A stretch of DNA of 64,000 nucleotides from Lepidostoma basale (taxonomy: Eukaryota; Arthropoda; Insecta; Trichoptera; Lepidostomatidae). A program made the translations under genes and the position numbers. Shown here in pieces: positions 5,320 to 63,463 of the stretch (position 1 is its first letter; each line of letters opens with the position of its first letter). The notes beneath the pieces were generated by a model. The model had not been told where the DNA came from. It saw only the letters and a list, made by a program, of their open reading frames with translations, and searched no databases. The DNA is taken from assembly GCA_022606425.2 (NCBI GenBank), contig JAHDVF020000726.1:585338-649337 (forward strand), given 5' to 3'.

Positions 5320-5835
5320 AATCTTTTGATAACGCCTTAGCAAGGGTCATGTCATTCACATAAAATATAATGAAAACGTCAGTTTTCTAGAAGTTTAATT
5401 ATATTTCATGTGAATGACATGTTTCGCCCTTTTAAGGCATTATCAAATGGCACGGAAAAATTGGCACGATCAAATCAATCAAATATTGAATGTCGGTCAC
5501 GTGAAGAGTCTGGGAAATCGACGTGCGTGCATGACACGATGTATGAATGTAGAGGAAGTGAGAGATGTATGTCAGGACAGAACAGTTTGGCGTCCATTCT
5601 TTCTGTCATCTAAACTAACTAACTAACTGTCTCCATCATTAGTTAGTTAGTTTAGATGGAATGACATGTTTCGCCGTTCCAAGACATTATCAAATGATAA
5701 TGATAAATCATTTGATAATGCCTTAGAAGGGCGAAACGTGTCATTTCATCTAAAATATAATAAAACTTCTAGAAAACTGACGTTTTCATTTATGTTAATT
5801 ATTGAATATGGAGTTTTACATCATTGACCAAGAAA
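5320..5835. repeat. HH2 foldback repeats split by a LINE-A fragment
   Basis: HH2 arms at 5325-5445 and 5661-5830 flank a LINE-A piece. The right part is well kept: TTGATAATGCCTTAGAAGGG then GCGAAACGTGTCATT near 5704-5743, with its inverted partner GAATGACATGTTTCGCCGTT at 5659-5678. Confidence 0.65.
5446..5605 (+). mobile_element. LINE-A fragment nested in HH2
   Basis: Encodes the WHDQINQILNVGHV block through the MTRCMNVEE block and stops just before the usual terminus. The tail is replaced by an inverted pair, AACTAACTAACT and AGTTAGTTAG (5614-5655), which looks like two opposed LINE-A tails fused. Confidence 0.65.
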
Positions 5836-6029: not shown

Positions 6030-6222
6030 GAGATCTTGGAAAAACCTAGTAGCTCGTCTTTCTGGACCAACATTTCGAAGATCTTTGCAGTCTCCGTCTT
6101 CAGGGTGGTTATGATTTATTAATATTAACCACCCTGATGATGCAGACTGCAACGATTTCCGAAACGTCGGTCCAGAAACACGAGCTACACGGATTTTCCC
6201 AAGATCCCAAAATACATATTGT
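6030..6222. repeat. HH6 inverted pair with intact hammerhead-like cores
   Basis: Plus arm: CTGATGA at 6134-6140 and GAAAC at 6161-6165 followed by GTC. Minus arm: CTGAAGA (complement of 6097-6103) and GAAA (complement of 6073-6076), with a 5-bp stem II including one G-U pair. Both arms have ACC directly before the core and GGT after the predicted cleavage point, which pair as helix I. Found once in this window. Confidence 0.55.
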
Positions 6223-9084: not shown

Positions 9085-9235
9085 ACACTGTTACAGAATA
9101 TCACGATTGATTATATTTCTTTCGAAATTGTCGCGACGGCTGTTTCGCTTGCCGATGTTAGCATCATCGGGTGTTACAATCAACATATTAATTATTAATA
9201 GTAAACACGATTGTTTAGTGGTTTTACTTGGATTA
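9085..9235. repeat. HH3 repeat with hammerhead-like core on minus strand
   Basis: Reverse complement of 9123-9180 has CCGATGA, a T, GCTAAC/GGCAAGC-type stem and GAAAC followed by AGCCGTC. Distal helix I is ATTGT/ACAAT around an AACAC/GCG internal loop. One core change (U4 to C). Confidence 0.55.
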
Positions 9236-16890: not shown

Positions 16891-16967
16891 AGAGGGTATA
16901 GGTACATTTATTTAGAGATTTTTTTTATCAAGAGATTTCAGTTAAATCAGTAGATGATATTATACTA

Positions 16968-17139
16968 ATAATTAAATAAAACGATGTTTTTTAACTACTT
17001 CCACTTTTTTCTTTATTTAGACAGCGACCGGTTTCGCCAGGCTCGCTGGCATCGATGCCAGCGAGCCTGGCGAAACCGGTCGCTGTCTAAATAAAGACAA
17101 AAGTGGAAGTAGTTAAAAAACATCGTTTTATTTAATTAT
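16968..17139. repeat. HH1 near-perfect 172-bp palindrome
   Basis: Two 86-bp arms, centre between 17053 and 17054, with a single noticed mismatch. Each arm holds GCCAGCGAGCCTGGCGAAAC followed by CGGTC (GAAAC at 17072-17076), i.e. a 5-bp stem II and the hammerhead-like GAAAC...GTC segment. A CAAGAGATTTCAG-containing 40-bp block is directly repeated outside it (16926-16966 and 17157-17200). Confidence 0.75.
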
Positions 17140-17249
17140 TATTTAAAATGAACTTCCATCAAGAGATTTCAGTAAAATCATTCGATTATGATATTATACT
17201 GTTTATGAAAACTACCTCACTGACACATAAAATGTTTAAATTCGAGGCG

Positions 17250-19625: not shown

Positions 19626-19856
19626 ATAATAAAACAATGTTTTTTTACTACGACCGGTTTCGCCAGGCTCGCTGGCATCAACAGACTGGTGAAGGTATGG
19701 CATCGACAGATTGGGCAGACAGGACATTGCTGGCATCGACAGACTGGTCCAGTCTGTCGATGCCAGCGAGCCTGGCGAAGCCGGTTGCTGTCGAAATAAA
19801 TACAAAAGTGGAAGTAGGTAAAAAGCATCGTTTTATTTAATTATTATTATTTAATA
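19622..19856. repeat. HH1 foldback with a spacer carrying extra partial motifs
   Basis: Arms at 19640-19680 and 19755-19850 as in 16968-17139. The 80-bp spacer contains three more GGCATCGACAGA-type partial copies (19698, 19731 and nearby), suggesting local amplification of the motif. Confidence 0.7.
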
Positions 19857-21639: not shown

Positions 21640-21835
21640 TTCGGGAATGCAAAAAAAATTGCGTGGTATTTTTGCTCCAGAGAGATATCACCGACAGCGC
21701 TGGCATAGGTTGTTTTATCTGCCGGCCGCCAGAACTAACCTGCCTCTGGTCAAGACGCTGGGTAGAGCAATAAACATAATCACTTCAGAAATCATCGACG
21801 TCTTGAATATTATTTATCAACTGCTGATTTTAACA
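21640..21835 (+). mobile_element. CR1/Jockey-like LINE fragment, family F
   Basis: Reads ERYHRQRWHRLFYLPAARTN and LPLVKTLGRAINIITSEIID in one open frame; flanked on the right by HH3. Confidence 0.7.
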
Positions 21836-22175
21836 CCTTAGGATGGCAACATCGGTTGGCGAAACAGCTGTCGCGACAATTTCAAAAGATATAAAATCAA
21901 TTGTGATATTCTATGACAACGTTTTAATTAAACGGTTAACATTATTTCCTTCCCATATAATAAAATACTTAAAAATTTTAGGACTGTTATGTTATCAAAA
22001 TTTTTAATATTCACTTTTTTAGTGTCGCAACAGCTGTTTCGCATCATCAGCATCAGGGGTTATAAACAGTTAATGATGCCAACATCGGTTGACGAAACAG
22101 CTGTCGCGACATTCAAAAAGTGAATAGTAAAAATTGTAATAACAAAACACTGTTATAAATTTTAAGAGTTCATAT
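21836..22175. repeat. HH3 repeats, three motif copies
   Basis: GGTTGGCGAAACAGCTGTCG at 21850-21869, an inverted AACAGCTGTTTCGCATCATC near 22030, and GGTTGACGAAACAGCTGTCG near 22086. Stem II GCCAAC/GTTGGC is kept in the first. Confidence 0.65.
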
Positions 22176-22184
22176 TTTATTATA

Positions 22185-22470
22185 TTTAACTAACTAACTA
22201 ACCATCACGCCGTCTCCCCGAAGGGGTAGGCAGAAAAAATGGACTGCCACACCTTTCTTTCCTGACATATTTCTCTCGCTTCCTCAACATTCATACATCG
22301 TGTCATGCGCGCGCGTCGATTTCTCTGACTCCTCACATGGCCGACATTCAATATTTGATTTATTTGATCGTGCCACGTTTTCCTTGGTCTTCCTCTATTT
22401 CTGGTACCATTTACATCATTAACATATAATTTTTTTACCATTCTTTCTTCATTCATTCTTTCCATATTAT
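22185..22470 (-). mobile_element. LINE-A 3' end
   Basis: Terminus plus an uninterrupted 92-codon C-terminus (22205-22483): MERMNEERMVKKLYVNDVNG, RPRKTWHDQI, MTRCMNVEEAREI. Very similar to 12987-13340, so probably recent. Confidence 0.85.
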
Positions 22471-24439: not shown

Positions 24440-24562
24440 TAAATATTTTAAATAATAATTAAATAAAACGATGTTTTTTAACTACTTCCACTTTTGTCTT
24501 TATTTAGACAGCGACCGGTTTCGCCAGGCTCGCTGGCATCGACAGACTGTCGGTCTGTCGTC
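24440..24562. repeat. HH1 left arm
   Basis: AACGATGTTTTTTAACTACT through CGGTTTCGCCAGGCTCGCTG; the right arm is replaced by LINE-A sequence at 24565. Confidence 0.65.
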
Positions 24563-27224: not shown

Positions 27225-27400
27225 ACTAACTAACCATCACGCCGTCTCCCCGAAGGGGTAGGCAGAAAGAATGGAATGCCACACTTTTCTTTCCTGACAT
27301 ATTTCTCTCGATTCTTCAACATTCATACATCGTGTCATACACGCGCGTCGATTTCTCTGACTCCTCACGTGGCCGACATTCAATATTTGATTGGATTAGA
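27225..27400 (-). mobile_element. LINE-A terminus
   Basis: Tail complement at 27223-27238, terminus and the NVGHV/MTRCMNVEE blocks; truncated after 160 bp. Confidence 0.8.
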
Positions 27401-28228: not shown

Positions 28229-28745
28229 AAAGCTAAAATGGCAGTGCACAATGGTGTTCTTATAACGACCCTTATGTATGGAAGCGAAGCATGGAACTGG
28301 TAAAAAATAATGAAAGTAGAATAAATGCAGTAGAAATGAGATCTCTTAGACGCATGTGAGGAATACTCTGTGTATGATAGAGTGTCGAATGAACATATAA
28401 GAAGTGAGTGCGGTGCGAATGATGATGTTAGGAATAAAATAATGATATGATCATTTGGACGGTTTGGACACATGGAAATAATGAATGAAAAAATAATGGT
28501 AAAAAATTATATGTTAACGATGTAAATGGAACTAGAAATAGAGGAAGACCGAGGAAAATGTGGCACGGTCAAATTAATCAAATATTGAATGTCGGCTACG
28601 TGAGGAGTCAGAGAAATCGTCGCGAGGGCATGACACGATGTATGAATGTTGAGGAATTCAGAGAAATATGTCAGGAAAGAAAAGTGTGGCAGTCCATTCC
28701 TTCTGCCTTTCTCTTCGGGGAGACGGCGTGATGGTTAGTTAGAGT
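28229..28745 (+). mobile_element. LINE-A copy
   Basis: AVHNGVL block to the tail (GGCGTGATGGTTAGTTAG), about 515 bp with several stops and frameshifts. Confidence 0.85.
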
Positions 28746-28789
28746 TTTATATCATTATTTCTCTTTTTCTTTTTTTAAACACTTTGTTT

Positions 28790-29035
28790 ATACGACACTT
28801 ACATTAAATTTTTTTAATTACATAGACATGTTTCGGACAACCAGTCCTTCTCCAGTGACACATATTATAAATATACATATTTAAAATAATATTAAATTAT
28901 TTATATTATTTTAAATATGTATATTTATAATATGTATCACTGAAGAAGGAATGGTTGTCCGAAACATGTCTATGTAATTTTAATTTTTAATGTAAGTATT
29001 GTACAAACAAAGTGTATTAAAAAAGAAAAAGAGAA
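28790..29035. repeat. HH4 inverted pair with an intact hammerhead-like core
   Basis: Plus core: CTGAAGA (28940-28946), stem II GGA/TCC, GAAACATGTC (28961-28970). Minus core: CTGGAGA (complement of 28849-28855), stem II GGAC/GTCC, GAAACATGTC. The arms extend to ACACTTTGTTTATAC/GTACAAACAAAGTGT, about 240 bp in all, around a TATAAATATAC-rich centre. Confidence 0.6.
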
Positions 29036-29094
29036 ATAAAGCAATTACAACACAAAGTATGGCGAATATATAAGAAATTTTATATCATTGTAAG

Positions 29095-29640
29095 AAACTA
29101 ACTAACTAACTAACTAACCATCACGCCGTCTCCCCGAAGGGGTAGGCAGAAATAATGGACTGCCACAATTTTCTTTCCTGAAATATTTCTCTCGCTTCCT
29201 CAACATTCATACATCGTGTCATGCACGCGCGTCGATTTCTCTTTCACTCCTCACATGGCCGACATTCAATATTTGATTTATTTGATCGTGCCACGTTTTT
29301 TTTTTTTTTTTCATAAAACATTTGATTTATTATTTTGATAAAGATATTATATATATTTTCCTCGATCTTCCTCTATTTCTGGTTCCATTTACATCATTAA
29401 CATATAATTTTTTTTACCATTCTTTCTTCATTCATTCTTTCCATATGTCCAAACCATCTTAATGATCCTTTCATTATTTTGTTCATGACACCATCATTCG
29501 CACCGCATTCACTTCTTATATTTTCATTCGACGCTCTATCATACACAGAGTATCCACACATTCGTCTAAGAGATCTCATTTCTACTGCATTTATTCTACT
29601 TTCATCCTTATTTTGCCAGTTCCATGCTTCGCTTAATGTA
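29095..29640 (-). mobile_element. LINE-A copy with a nested insert
   Basis: Terminus at 29095-29150; 29397-29579 is open as MRSLRRMCGYSVYDRASNEN through MVKK. A 65-bp T-rich block (29297-29362) splits the RPRKTWH codons. Confidence 0.85.
29297..29362 (-). mobile_element. Poly(A)-tailed insert inside LINE-A
   Basis: About 15 T residues lead into CATAAAACATTTGATTTATT; read on the minus strand this is a short 3' end with a poly(A) tail. The interrupted word ACGTTTT/TTTTCCTCG suggests a small TTTT-containing duplication at the site. Confidence 0.5.
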
Positions 29641-30464: not shown

Positions 30465-30812
30465 TACTTCAACATTTCAACTGTTAAAATTTAAACGCTG
30501 TTATGTTATAACTCTATATTTAATTTTCACGGAAGCTGTTTCGCCAACCGGTGTTGGCATCATCAAGTGTTACAATCAATTTTTCGTTTATGTGGAGAGT
30601 TTCCACAACAGCTGTCGCAAAAAACAAATTAAATAATTGTGGTTTAAATTTTGACATGAAATAGTAATTTTACGTTTTATTTAATTGTGTGTTAATTATT
30701 ATGCATAAAAAGATCAGTCTGTCGACGACAGCCAGCCTGGTGAAACCGGCTGCTGTTAGATTTTAAGACAAATGTGAAAGCAGTTATTAAAAAATATTGT
30801 TTTATTTCAATT
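30465..30812. repeat. HH3 then HH1 half-repeats
   Basis: Complement of 30530-30580 has TTGATGA, stem GCCAAC/GGTTGGC, GAAACAGC (HH3, one core change). 30716-30755 has CTGTCGACGACAGCCAGCC and GGTGAAACCGGC (HH1). Confidence 0.55.
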
Positions 30813-35064: not shown

Positions 35065-35300
35065 TGTATACATATTGTACTCGTATGAACCCAATTACTG
35101 TATACAATTTATTTTAGCTATTATATTGATTCTTATGACATGTGATAGGTAGCCAATCTATCGCCATTTTATTGTCAGAGAATTCTACACCAGACCAAAG
35201 ACAGTGTGACAATCACACTGCCATCGCCGGGAATCGAACCCGGGGCCTTCGATATGAAAGTCAGTGCTCTTACCACTCTGCCACGAAGGTCGACTTATGT
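35065..35300 (-). mobile_element. SINE-P, near full length
   Basis: From CATATTGTACTCGTATGAAC (3' part) through ATTCTTATGACATGTGATAG to the head complement GCCACGAAGGTCG. B-box complement GGGAATCGAACCC at 35230. Confidence 0.8.
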
Positions 35301-45334: not shown

Positions 45335-45595
45335 TACTTTAACATTTTATAACTGTTAATGAAAAAACTTTGTTTTTTATATCACAATTGTATTTTATTT
45401 ATGACAGCTGTTTCAAATTGACATAGGAACAAATACACATAAAGATTCGAAAAATCACTAAAATTTGACATTTTATAAATTATTGTAACACCTGATGGTG
45501 TCAACATTGGTTGATGAAACAGCTGTCGTAAAATAAAATACAATTGTGATATAAAAACAAAGTTTTTTCATTACCAGTTATAAAGTTTTATTATA
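45335..45595. repeat. HH3 foldback with hammerhead-like core
   Basis: Plus arm 45493-45535: CTGATGG, T, GTCAAC/GGTTGAT-type stem, GAAACAGCTGTC; one core change (A9 to G). Left arm GACAGCTGTTTC at 45412. Outer arms share ACAATTGTATTTTATTT and AAATAAAATACAATTGTG. Confidence 0.65.
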
Positions 45596-45775
45596 TTTTA
45601 TGTGAATGACACGTTTCGCCTGTCTATTGTCAAGTGTATTATATAACATTTGATAATGCCTCAAGCAGGCGAAACATGTCATTCAGCATTCACATAAAAT
45701 ATAATAAAACTTCAAAAAAATAGACCAGTACATTCGCATACATTATTTAATAAGGAGTTTTACATCATAGTTGAA
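45590..45775. repeat. HH2 foldback
   Basis: GAATGACACGTTTCGCCTG and TTGATAATGCCTCAAGCAGG then CGAAACATGTCATTC (45650-45684); stem II GCCT/AGGC intact; core C3 to T and G8 to A. Confidence 0.7.
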
Positions 45776-54442: not shown

Positions 54443-54585
54443 AGACATGTTTCGACGGCTTACAGCTTCGTCATCGGAAGAACGATATAAACTGTTTATA
54501 TCGTTCTCCCGATGATGAAGGTATTAGCCTTCGAAACATGTCGAGAAAAATAAACTCAAAAGTGGAAAAAACAGTGTTTTAATTC
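54443..54585. repeat. HH5 inverted pair with perfect helix I
   Basis: Plus arm: TTCTC (54504-54508), CCGATGA (54509-54515), T, stem II GAAGG/CCTTC, GAAACATGTC, then GAGAA (54543-54547), which pairs exactly with TTCTC. Minus arm has CCGATGA, GAAAC and ATGTC. The centre is the palindrome GATATAAACTGTTTATATC. Confidence 0.6.
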
Positions 54586-63265: not shown

Positions 63266-63463
63266 ATAATAATTAAATAAAACAATGTTTTTTAACTACT
63301 TTCACTTTTGTCTTTATTTCGACAGCGACCGGTTTCGCCAGGCTTGCTGGCATCGACAGACATCGACGTACTGATGCCAGCGAACCTGGCGAAACCGGTC
63401 GCTGTCTAAATAAAGACAAAAGTGGAAGTAGTTAAAAAAACATCGTTTTATTTAATTATTATT
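63266..63463. repeat. HH1 foldback, both arms
   Basis: CGACCGGTTTCGCCAGGC (63326) and GCCAGCGAACCTGGCGAAAC then CGGTC (63379-63404) with full outer arms; right flank repeats the CAAGAGATTTCAG block seen at 17160. Confidence 0.7.

Follow-up and report, generated by a model that had tools for sequence, protein, structure and literature searches.

The HH4 repeat is a foldback insertion in a 64-kb stretch of Lepidostoma basale DNA, here called the window, from a host genome of 768.8 Mb in 1,572 contigs. It is a head-to-head pair of inverted arms, each with a hammerhead-like ribozyme motif, and belongs to family F1 of the Penelope-like element (PLE) repeats described below. Its limits follow from the two copies of TTTTATATCATT at its outer ends (Table 1), and the pair entered as a whole, creating a target duplication of 12 bp. 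The left arm is short, without a tail, and its motif carries A6 to G. The right arm is long, with a helix I of only 1 bp beside its core and a tail that resembles the start of an open reading frame (ORF); in this copy the frame closes four codons after its ATG.

Table 1. Repeat features of the window, in window positions; E is the E value of the motif match
Feature	Position	Strand	Description
HH4 left target-site duplication, TTTTATATCATT	28745..28756		12-nt exact repeat at the outer ends
HH4 insertion (F1)	28757..29077		head-to-head pair of 5'-truncated Penelope-like 3' ends; inverted arms, symmetric centre, target-site duplication on both sides
HH4 left-arm hammerhead-like motif	28825..28855	-	CTGGAGA A GGAC..GTCC GAAACATGTC; model match 28817-28863, E 7e-9
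HH4 right-arm hammerhead-like motif	28940..28970	+	CTGAAGA A GGA..TCC GAAACATGTC; CTGAAGA 28940-28946, GAAACATGTC 28961-28970; model match 28932-28978, E 5.6e-10
HH4 right (long) arm, ORF-start tail	29047..29077	+	tail score 54 (left arm 16); ATG 29059-29061
HH4 right target-site duplication, TTTTATATCATT	29078..29089		12-nt exact repeat
HH6 (F7) pair	6057..6176		palindromic centre; motif of the minus arm at 6103 (E 0.58), of the plus arm at 6134 (E 0.0046); helix I ACC/GGT
HH3 (F4)	9127..9178	-	CCGATGA (9170, -), GAAACAGCCGTC; E 6.3e-6
HH5 (F3) pair	54444..54550		plus motif at 54509, CCGATGA (one change), helix I TTCTC/GAGAA, 6-bp stem II, E 1.6e-11; minus motif partial, E 0.04
F12 pair, U3-A8 core (TTGATAA)	5655..5750		motifs at 5693 (-) and 5712 (+); right arm long
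F5 pair	19644..19794		core CTGTTGA in the minus motif; covariance model
F5 motif	24505..24553	-	core CTGTCGA; helix I 6 bp; E 1.2e-8
F5 motif	63319..63408		core CTGTCGA; overlapping weaker plus-strand match
F4 motif (45492, +) beside an F12 pair	45484..45688		covariance model; F12 pair at 45600-45641 (-), E 0.064, and 45642-45688 (+), E 2.1e-9
F5 near-perfect palindrome	17026..17081		partial motifs on both strands (model positions 14-40)
F4-type motif, TTGATGA core	30523..30574	-	E 5.6e-6
F4-type motif, CTTAGGA core	21829..21880	+	E 1.9e-5

A non-LTR retrotransposon of very high abundance, with a 3' tail of (TTAG)n and a C-terminal peptide containing GRPRKTWHDQINQIL, recurs in the window (for example at 28500-28742, 29101-29400, 27226-27392, and 22187-22331), and its tails flank HH4 on both sides in inverted orientation. 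A preference of the PLEs for inserting into such tails is not convincing: an antisense tail lies within 300 nt on the 3' side of 5/85 motifs and one in the other orientation of 0/85, with about 3% expected per strand. The F5 palindrome lies within 16966-17141, where 88-bp F5 arms face each other without a spacer at 99% complementarity; the same stretch draws a match to a bacterial sRNA model below its cut-off, presumably spurious. The window also holds a tRNA-like sequence on the minus strand (35219-35290, 33.4 bits, above the Rfam cut-off), and one of its ORFs, used as a protein query, matched just three unnamed proteins.

An earlier note on this DNA had described six repeat families, HH1 to HH6, that share one order of hammerhead-like elements. 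The cores that it named in HH3, HH4, HH5, and HH6 stand in the window sequence at the positions it gave, and the shared order holds for these four; HH1 and HH2 came without coordinates and lie outside this check by name. A relaxed descriptor search of the kind it suggested (one mismatch or none in the core, a single extra base, at least 4 bp of stem II, GAAA[CT] N0-4 GTH) returns 7 matches in the window, whereas 100 order-2 shuffles give a mean of 0.22 and a maximum of 1. Descriptors with 0 or 2 extra bases give no excess over shuffles in the window, and a looser scan allowing one mismatch finds 9 window matches where 2.1 are expected. Across the genome, the exact pattern CTGANGA..GAAACNTGTC has 14,794 matches, some of them nested or due to chance, as compared with 16 for the reversed pattern.

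The extra residue after A9 that the note had pointed out is a regular part of the motif. Among 51 exact-pattern matches from the fetched loci and the window, for which pairing was not required, stem II begins at offset 1 in 41 and is absent in 10, and no match has it at any other offset. Counted over distinct inserts, 23/33 have a stem II of at least three closing pairs at offset 1, compared with 7% of shuffled inserts. One extra base follows A9 in 71 of 73 sites under a score that favoured one extra base; the offset-1 scan, the relaxed descriptor, and the looser scan with at most one mismatch were scored without that bias.

A covariance model of our own, built without any window sequence, finds 28 window matches at E ≤ 1, the best at 44.5 bits. 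Fourteen of these score above 24.4 bits. That is the top score in a control of viral contigs chosen for holding the pattern (80 of 120 stretches, 670,948 bases), in which 29 matches reach E ≤ 1. Chance resemblance is ruled out by the shuffle counts together with this viral control. Neither the window nor any of nine fetched loci gives a match at E ≤ 10 to the Rfam hammerhead models, whose use the note had also proposed.

Clustering of 101 motif sites from the fetched loci and the window by their flanks, in which about ten single rows look like chance, distinguishes 13 families, F1 to F13; HH4 falls into F1, HH5 into F3, HH3 into F4, and HH6 into F7. Their common layout is a short helix I, CUGANGA or its U3-A8 form, one unpaired extra base, stem II, GAAAC, 0-4 nt, and GUC. 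Helix I, which was no selection criterion in choosing motifs, pairs at 37/52 positions over the 13 family majorities, compared with 21.0 when partners are shuffled between families, a level reached by 0/20,000 shuffles. F4, F6, and F10 lack, in their family majorities, a helix I of two adjacent pairs beside the core. Stem II pairs at 52/52 positions of the family majorities, where the scan had demanded at least three of the first four pairs. The 0-4-nt stretch in the place of helix III is palindromic in 10/13 families (ACATGT, ACCGGT, ACAGCTGT, ACGT).

True covariation in a hammerhead-like fold, as claimed in the earlier note, is borne out by an alignment of 23 sequences from the 13 families (23 of 28 listed, with four window rows and one decayed row dropped). 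Its covariation score is 0.638, as compared with 0.166 (sd 0.025) after shuffling and at most 0.191 when the structure is slid along the alignment, and it spans helix I, stem II, and the C3-G8 core pair. Since the sequences were partly chosen by stem-II pairing, GAAAC, and GT, only helix I and C3-G8 are free of selection bias. The covariance model used on the window was built from these same 23 sequences.

C3 and G8 are paired in the active hammerhead, and a natural U3-A8 covariation with activity in vitro has already been reported, according to the available part of PMC3088659. Sorted by the bases at positions 3 and 8, genome copies number 14,794 for C-G, 22,636 for U-A, 1,240 for C-A, and 1,536 for U-G, with 16, 54, 12, and 32 for the respective reversed-pattern controls. 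The corresponding odds ratio is 176, where the counts are of copies and not of independent changes. At least two families whose stem II is unrelated, F12 and F13, have the U3-A8 form. Most families have the core CUGANGA ... GAAA ... UH with either C3-G8 or U3-A8, of which GAAAC and GT were demanded by the motif scans. The exceptions are F5, in which A6 is U in each of the 8 cluster rows and in one window motif (window_19684), and F6, with U4 to A in both rows assigned to it.

The note had linked these repeats to Penelope-type retroelements and suggested a search for a Penelope-type reverse transcriptase (RT) with a GIY-YIG domain; both adjoin the motif. A young inverted pair (L017) with 662-nt arms, 99.8% identical, encodes GIY-YIG (23.3 bits), and its motif lies about 110 nt after the stop codon. 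In F5, two loci (L049, L051) hold 758-codon frames between inverted motif-bearing arms, and a third (L050) is a pair with 1,433-nt arms, again 99.8% identical. The L051 frame scores 51.6 bits for RVT_1 and 24.0 bits for GIY-YIG, and L050 scores 52.0 and 26.7 bits, against cut-offs of 29.6 and 22.6 bits. The L049 and L051 frames start inside the inverted arm and presumably lack the true N-terminus, which would make them 5'-truncated. RVT_1 was scored in F5 only; F9 has GIY-YIG at 23.3 and 24.8 bits, and in F1 and F2 the domain is recognised by similarity to that of F9. Endonuclease fragments also occur within other F1 pairs and next to an F2 motif. A genome search for GIY-YIG gives at least 62 matches with 150 of 541 candidates scored.

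A 743-aa stretch of the PLE protein has 1,379 relatives at E ≤ 0.001 among 7,994 scored, and the named ones among the 120 listed of these come from moths and butterflies, locusts, beetles, and a psyllid. The insect relatives carry the same Pfam domains. No relative of the protein was confirmed in the viral contigs, and a PDB sequence search with the L017 frame gave no match.

The motif lies just upstream of an ORF start, with the ATG 65-92 nt after GUC in 7/7 arms measured. The tail peptides are MANIEEV/I (F1, F9), MEFHSVNAF (F2; a string merged from copies, with the ATG proper seen in L032), MNFYSTVQET (F4), MNFHQEISVKSF (F5), and MEFYIIVQET (F12). Except for that of F1/F9, they resemble by eye the N-termini of relatives (MEFHQV, MFYQE, MNFDHV); MANIEEV has no clear counterpart among these. 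A conserved tail motif resembling AGTGG..ACAAAGT is present in just 28/91 sites. This arm layout is that of the known PLE junction between pseudo-LTR (pLTR) and ORF, with an optional tail.

The F1 (HH4), F2, F5, and F9 repeats are thus 5'-truncated 3' ends of autonomous PLEs that encode RT and/or GIY-YIG, and the separate non-autonomous class proposed in the earlier note falls away for these families. The fetched loci show no coding arm for F3, F4, F6-F8, or F10-F13. F4 and F12 have an ORF-like start 3' of the motif, whereas F3 (HH5) and F7 (HH6) show neither this start nor a coding arm. HH3, HH5, and HH6 are therefore assigned to PLEs by analogy: the same motif and layout suggest that they, too, are pLTR/ORF-start regions.

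The head-to-head arrangement that the note had inferred is the prevailing one. Within 2.5 kb, an inverted copy lies on the 5' side of the motif at 43/60 sites and on the 3' side at 6/60, direct copies lie on the 5' side at 9/60 and the 3' side at 6/60, and 16/60 have no partner copy; the 60 sites are motifs with wide context, and both arms of a pair are counted. Neighbouring model hits less than 200 nt apart in the window (26 of 28 hits, E ≤ 0.1) are minus-plus in 8 cases, plus-plus in 1, and plus-minus in 1, although of the 8, two overlap and could represent a single palindrome counted double. All 5/5 close GIY-YIG pairs are minus-then-plus.

Target-site duplications (TSDs) bound whole pairs. 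Exact direct repeats of at least 10 nt at the outer ends are found in 12/31 pairs, compared with 10.9% of 914 mismatched combinations. Seven of the 12, 11-13 nt long, sit exactly at the expected short and long ends (L011, L012, L029, L046, L050, L054, and HH4), that of L046 within a CTAA repeat. In the other five the repeat is off the expected ends (L049, in a TA run, L013 775/822, L043, L044, and L053). In 24/31 pairs there is no exact TSD of at least 10 nt at the expected ends. In some pairs (HH4, HH6, L009, L032, L034 5684/5723, L041, and L055) the centre is palindromic and leaves no more than one base unmatched; several pairs have unequal arms and an unmatched centre.

The two arms of a pair differ at their 3' ends. 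In seven clear pairs the short arm ends 55-70 nt and the long arm 94-109 nt 3' of the motif. The ORF-start tail is present on one arm in 27/32 typed pairs, on neither in 5/32, and on both in 0/32. Typed pairs are those of families with a known tail (F1/F9, F2, F5, and F12); pairs of F3, F4, F7, and F8, with tails unknown or unseen, were left untyped. The first 27 typed pairs comprise 23 with one tail, 4 with none, and none with two, while shuffling arms within families gives 14.2 mixed pairs (permutation p 0.00066, which covers these 27 alone). Five added pairs (L014, L026, L051, L058, and L061) comprise 4 with one tail and 1 with none. The one-tail idea arose from part of the same pairs; among the 10 typed pairs fetched after it, 8 have one tail and 2 have none.

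These observations make it probable that the HH repeats are the pLTR/ORF-start region of PLE families, inserted by two-strand priming, with a hammerhead that most likely processes multimer RNA. The PLE assignment is established for F1, F2, F5, and F9 and extends to the remaining families by likeness of motif and layout. A PLE protein is known to cut and extend both target strands and to use two internal RT start sites in vitro; no strand difference in the start site is reported (PMC11167929). In the proposed route, the protein would cut the strands of an AT-rich target about 12 bp apart, a stagger suggested by the TSDs at the outer ends of whole pairs. Each exposed 3' end would then prime reverse transcription on uncut PLE RNA, one strand starting at the distal site, which would yield the tailed arm, and the other at the proximal site. 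This assignment of start sites follows from the finding that most pairs have one tail and none has two. Both cDNAs would end early and be joined 5' to 5'.

All 32 arms inspected run through the predicted cut site of the hammerhead-like motif, so that their templates were either uncut there or re-ligated. Both this and the near-identical F5 copies that carry A6U suggest that insertion can proceed without cleavage, as it does in vitro (PMC11167929). The changes A6 to U in F5 and U4 to A in F6 make the predicted catalysis doubtful and are expected to weaken it in these two families. Past selection on the core fold is suggested by the U3-A8 covariation. The motif most likely serves the protein-assisted processing of read-through multimer RNA. 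Where elements are not in tandem, this may perhaps involve a trans-dimer formed through the palindromic helix III.

The main rival to this role, rather unlikely on balance, holds that the PLE protein uses the fold as an RNA landmark, for binding or for positioning the RT start, and that the fold is retained for this and not for cleavage. Such a role agrees with A6U in 8/8 rows of F5, whose copies have near-identical arms and long open frames, and with a natural A6C variant that is slow (k_obs <0.1/min) according to the available part of PMC3088659. In PMC11167929, catalytic mutants leave insertion unaffected, and RNA-seq gave no reads with ends at the cut site. The replacement of C3-G8 by U3-A8 in F12 and F13, with their unrelated stem II, is what one would expect if the catalytic core fold matters, and it speaks against the landmark role.

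The insertion route has its own competitor in self-priming, in which one cDNA folds back to form the inverted pair with an antisense template, as proposed for rotifer PLEs. Head-to-head is the most frequent arrangement in those rotifer elements, where inverted pLTRs carry a tail on one of the two and self-priming is favoured, according to the available text of PMC3846280. Palindromic centres with at most one unmatched base support this explanation in some of our pairs and keep it alive. Self-priming should, however, give both arms the same 3' end, which is at odds with the one-tailed majority, and the unequal arms and unmatched centres of several pairs speak against it as well; we regard it as unlikely. 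The one-tail counts favour two-strand priming and fit a reaction in which each cut target strand primes reverse transcription at a different start site.

A bolder form of two-strand priming can be offered only tentatively. Within one ribonucleoprotein, the two cut target strands would prime at different RNA start sites, a distal one that gives the tail and a proximal one, and this asymmetric integration would normally yield head-to-head pairs with a single tail. From its place a little upstream of the two start sites, the hammerhead would then be mainly architectural or trans-dimerising and free to lose catalysis, as in the A6U and U4A families.

Non-autonomous retrozymes, small circular-RNA hammerhead elements independent of any PLE frame, are a very improbable source of the repeats. 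Their small size and hammerheads would suit, and co-existence of retrozymes with PLEs is described in the available part of PMC7229834. Retrozymes would nevertheless be at odds with the scarcity of direct copies relative to inverted 5' partners, with F1, F2, F5, and F9 arms that run into coding sequence, and with long arms that end in ORF-start codons. The retrozyme trait of tandem fixed-length monomers without coding sequence is not borne out, as direct copies are few and four families hold coding remnants.

Ordinary MITEs or foldback DNA transposons with a chance hammerhead likeness are hardly credible: short inverted repeats flanked by TSDs do match them, and one insect genome study, in its available part, classed TIR repeats without protein homology as DNA/TIR (PMC8576890), but RT and GIY-YIG in longer arms, 5' truncation, asymmetric 3' ends, and covariation all oppose this explanation, which is already contradicted for four families.

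PLE families with truncated, two-strand-primed copies thus remain the preferred source of the repeats, and their parts have precedents. Two of these come from the literature: minimal type-I hammerheads in PLE pLTRs were reportedly described by Cervera and De la Pena in 2014, and small hammerhead variants in PLEs are said to cleave as dimers (Lunse, Weinberg and Breaker, 2017). The available parts of PMC6155905 and PMC7761336 describe minimal type-I hammerheads with no real helix III in the pLTRs of elements with RT and GIY-YIG, and the same holds here. The elements studied here differ from those in being mostly head-to-head and in having a very large U3-A8 group. They may also differ in the extra base after A9, which nearly all sites scanned here possess. 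Dimer-cleaving PLE hammerheads have a short palindromic helix III in review accounts, like 10/13 families here. The reviews, in their available parts, connect palindromic helix III with dimeric hammerheads and link cleavage as a dimer with tandem copies. Each transcript of a head-to-head pair would hold one sense motif, so a dimer would have to form in trans.

Two further close systems are Poseidon PAc of Anolis and the Penelope elements of Adineta vaga. Poseidon PAc (PMC11167929) shares the hammerhead at the pLTR-ORF junction, an RT start downstream in the ORF start, a tail between two start sites, and the cutting and extension of both target strands. It differs in being tandem, with a cut site 26 bp inside the ORF, whereas the motif here lies wholly upstream of the ATG. 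The Adineta vaga element has few copies in the available text of PMC3846280, as compared with thousands of motif copies here, along with 11-13-nt TSDs in seven clear pairs and a counted one-tail rule. A word search of that available text finds no mention of a hammerhead.

Minimal PLE hammerheads, dimeric cleavage, inverted pLTRs, and one-sided tails are already published. New here are the HH4 pair as one unit with a 12-bp TSD and the counted one-tail rule; neither this rule nor its link to TSDs turned up in searches of openly licensed papers. The mirrored layout hints at the insertion route of the poorly understood PLEs, and with tens of thousands of motif copies, many of them paired and with readable ends, that route can be tested by counting. 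Short inverted repeats labelled as MITEs in insect genomes may also be PLE ends.

Several pairs have features of their own. Seven F12 foldbacks have only 4-19 bases between their motifs (L034 1560/1567, L036, L053, L055, L056, L057, and window 5693/5712), as if the template RNA often started just 5' of the hammerhead; a transcription start at that point would explain the spacing. Two F1 pairs (L038 4714-5002 and L043 4684-4973) apparently lie within F12 elements, with an F12/F4-type ORF-start tail directly after the short arm, which points to nested insertion at the 3' end of an older element. The F5 loci L049 and L051 agree in their 5' truncation and in the inverted arm joined to it, and each borders a (TA)n run; their likeness reflects either one unit copied whole or a duplication.
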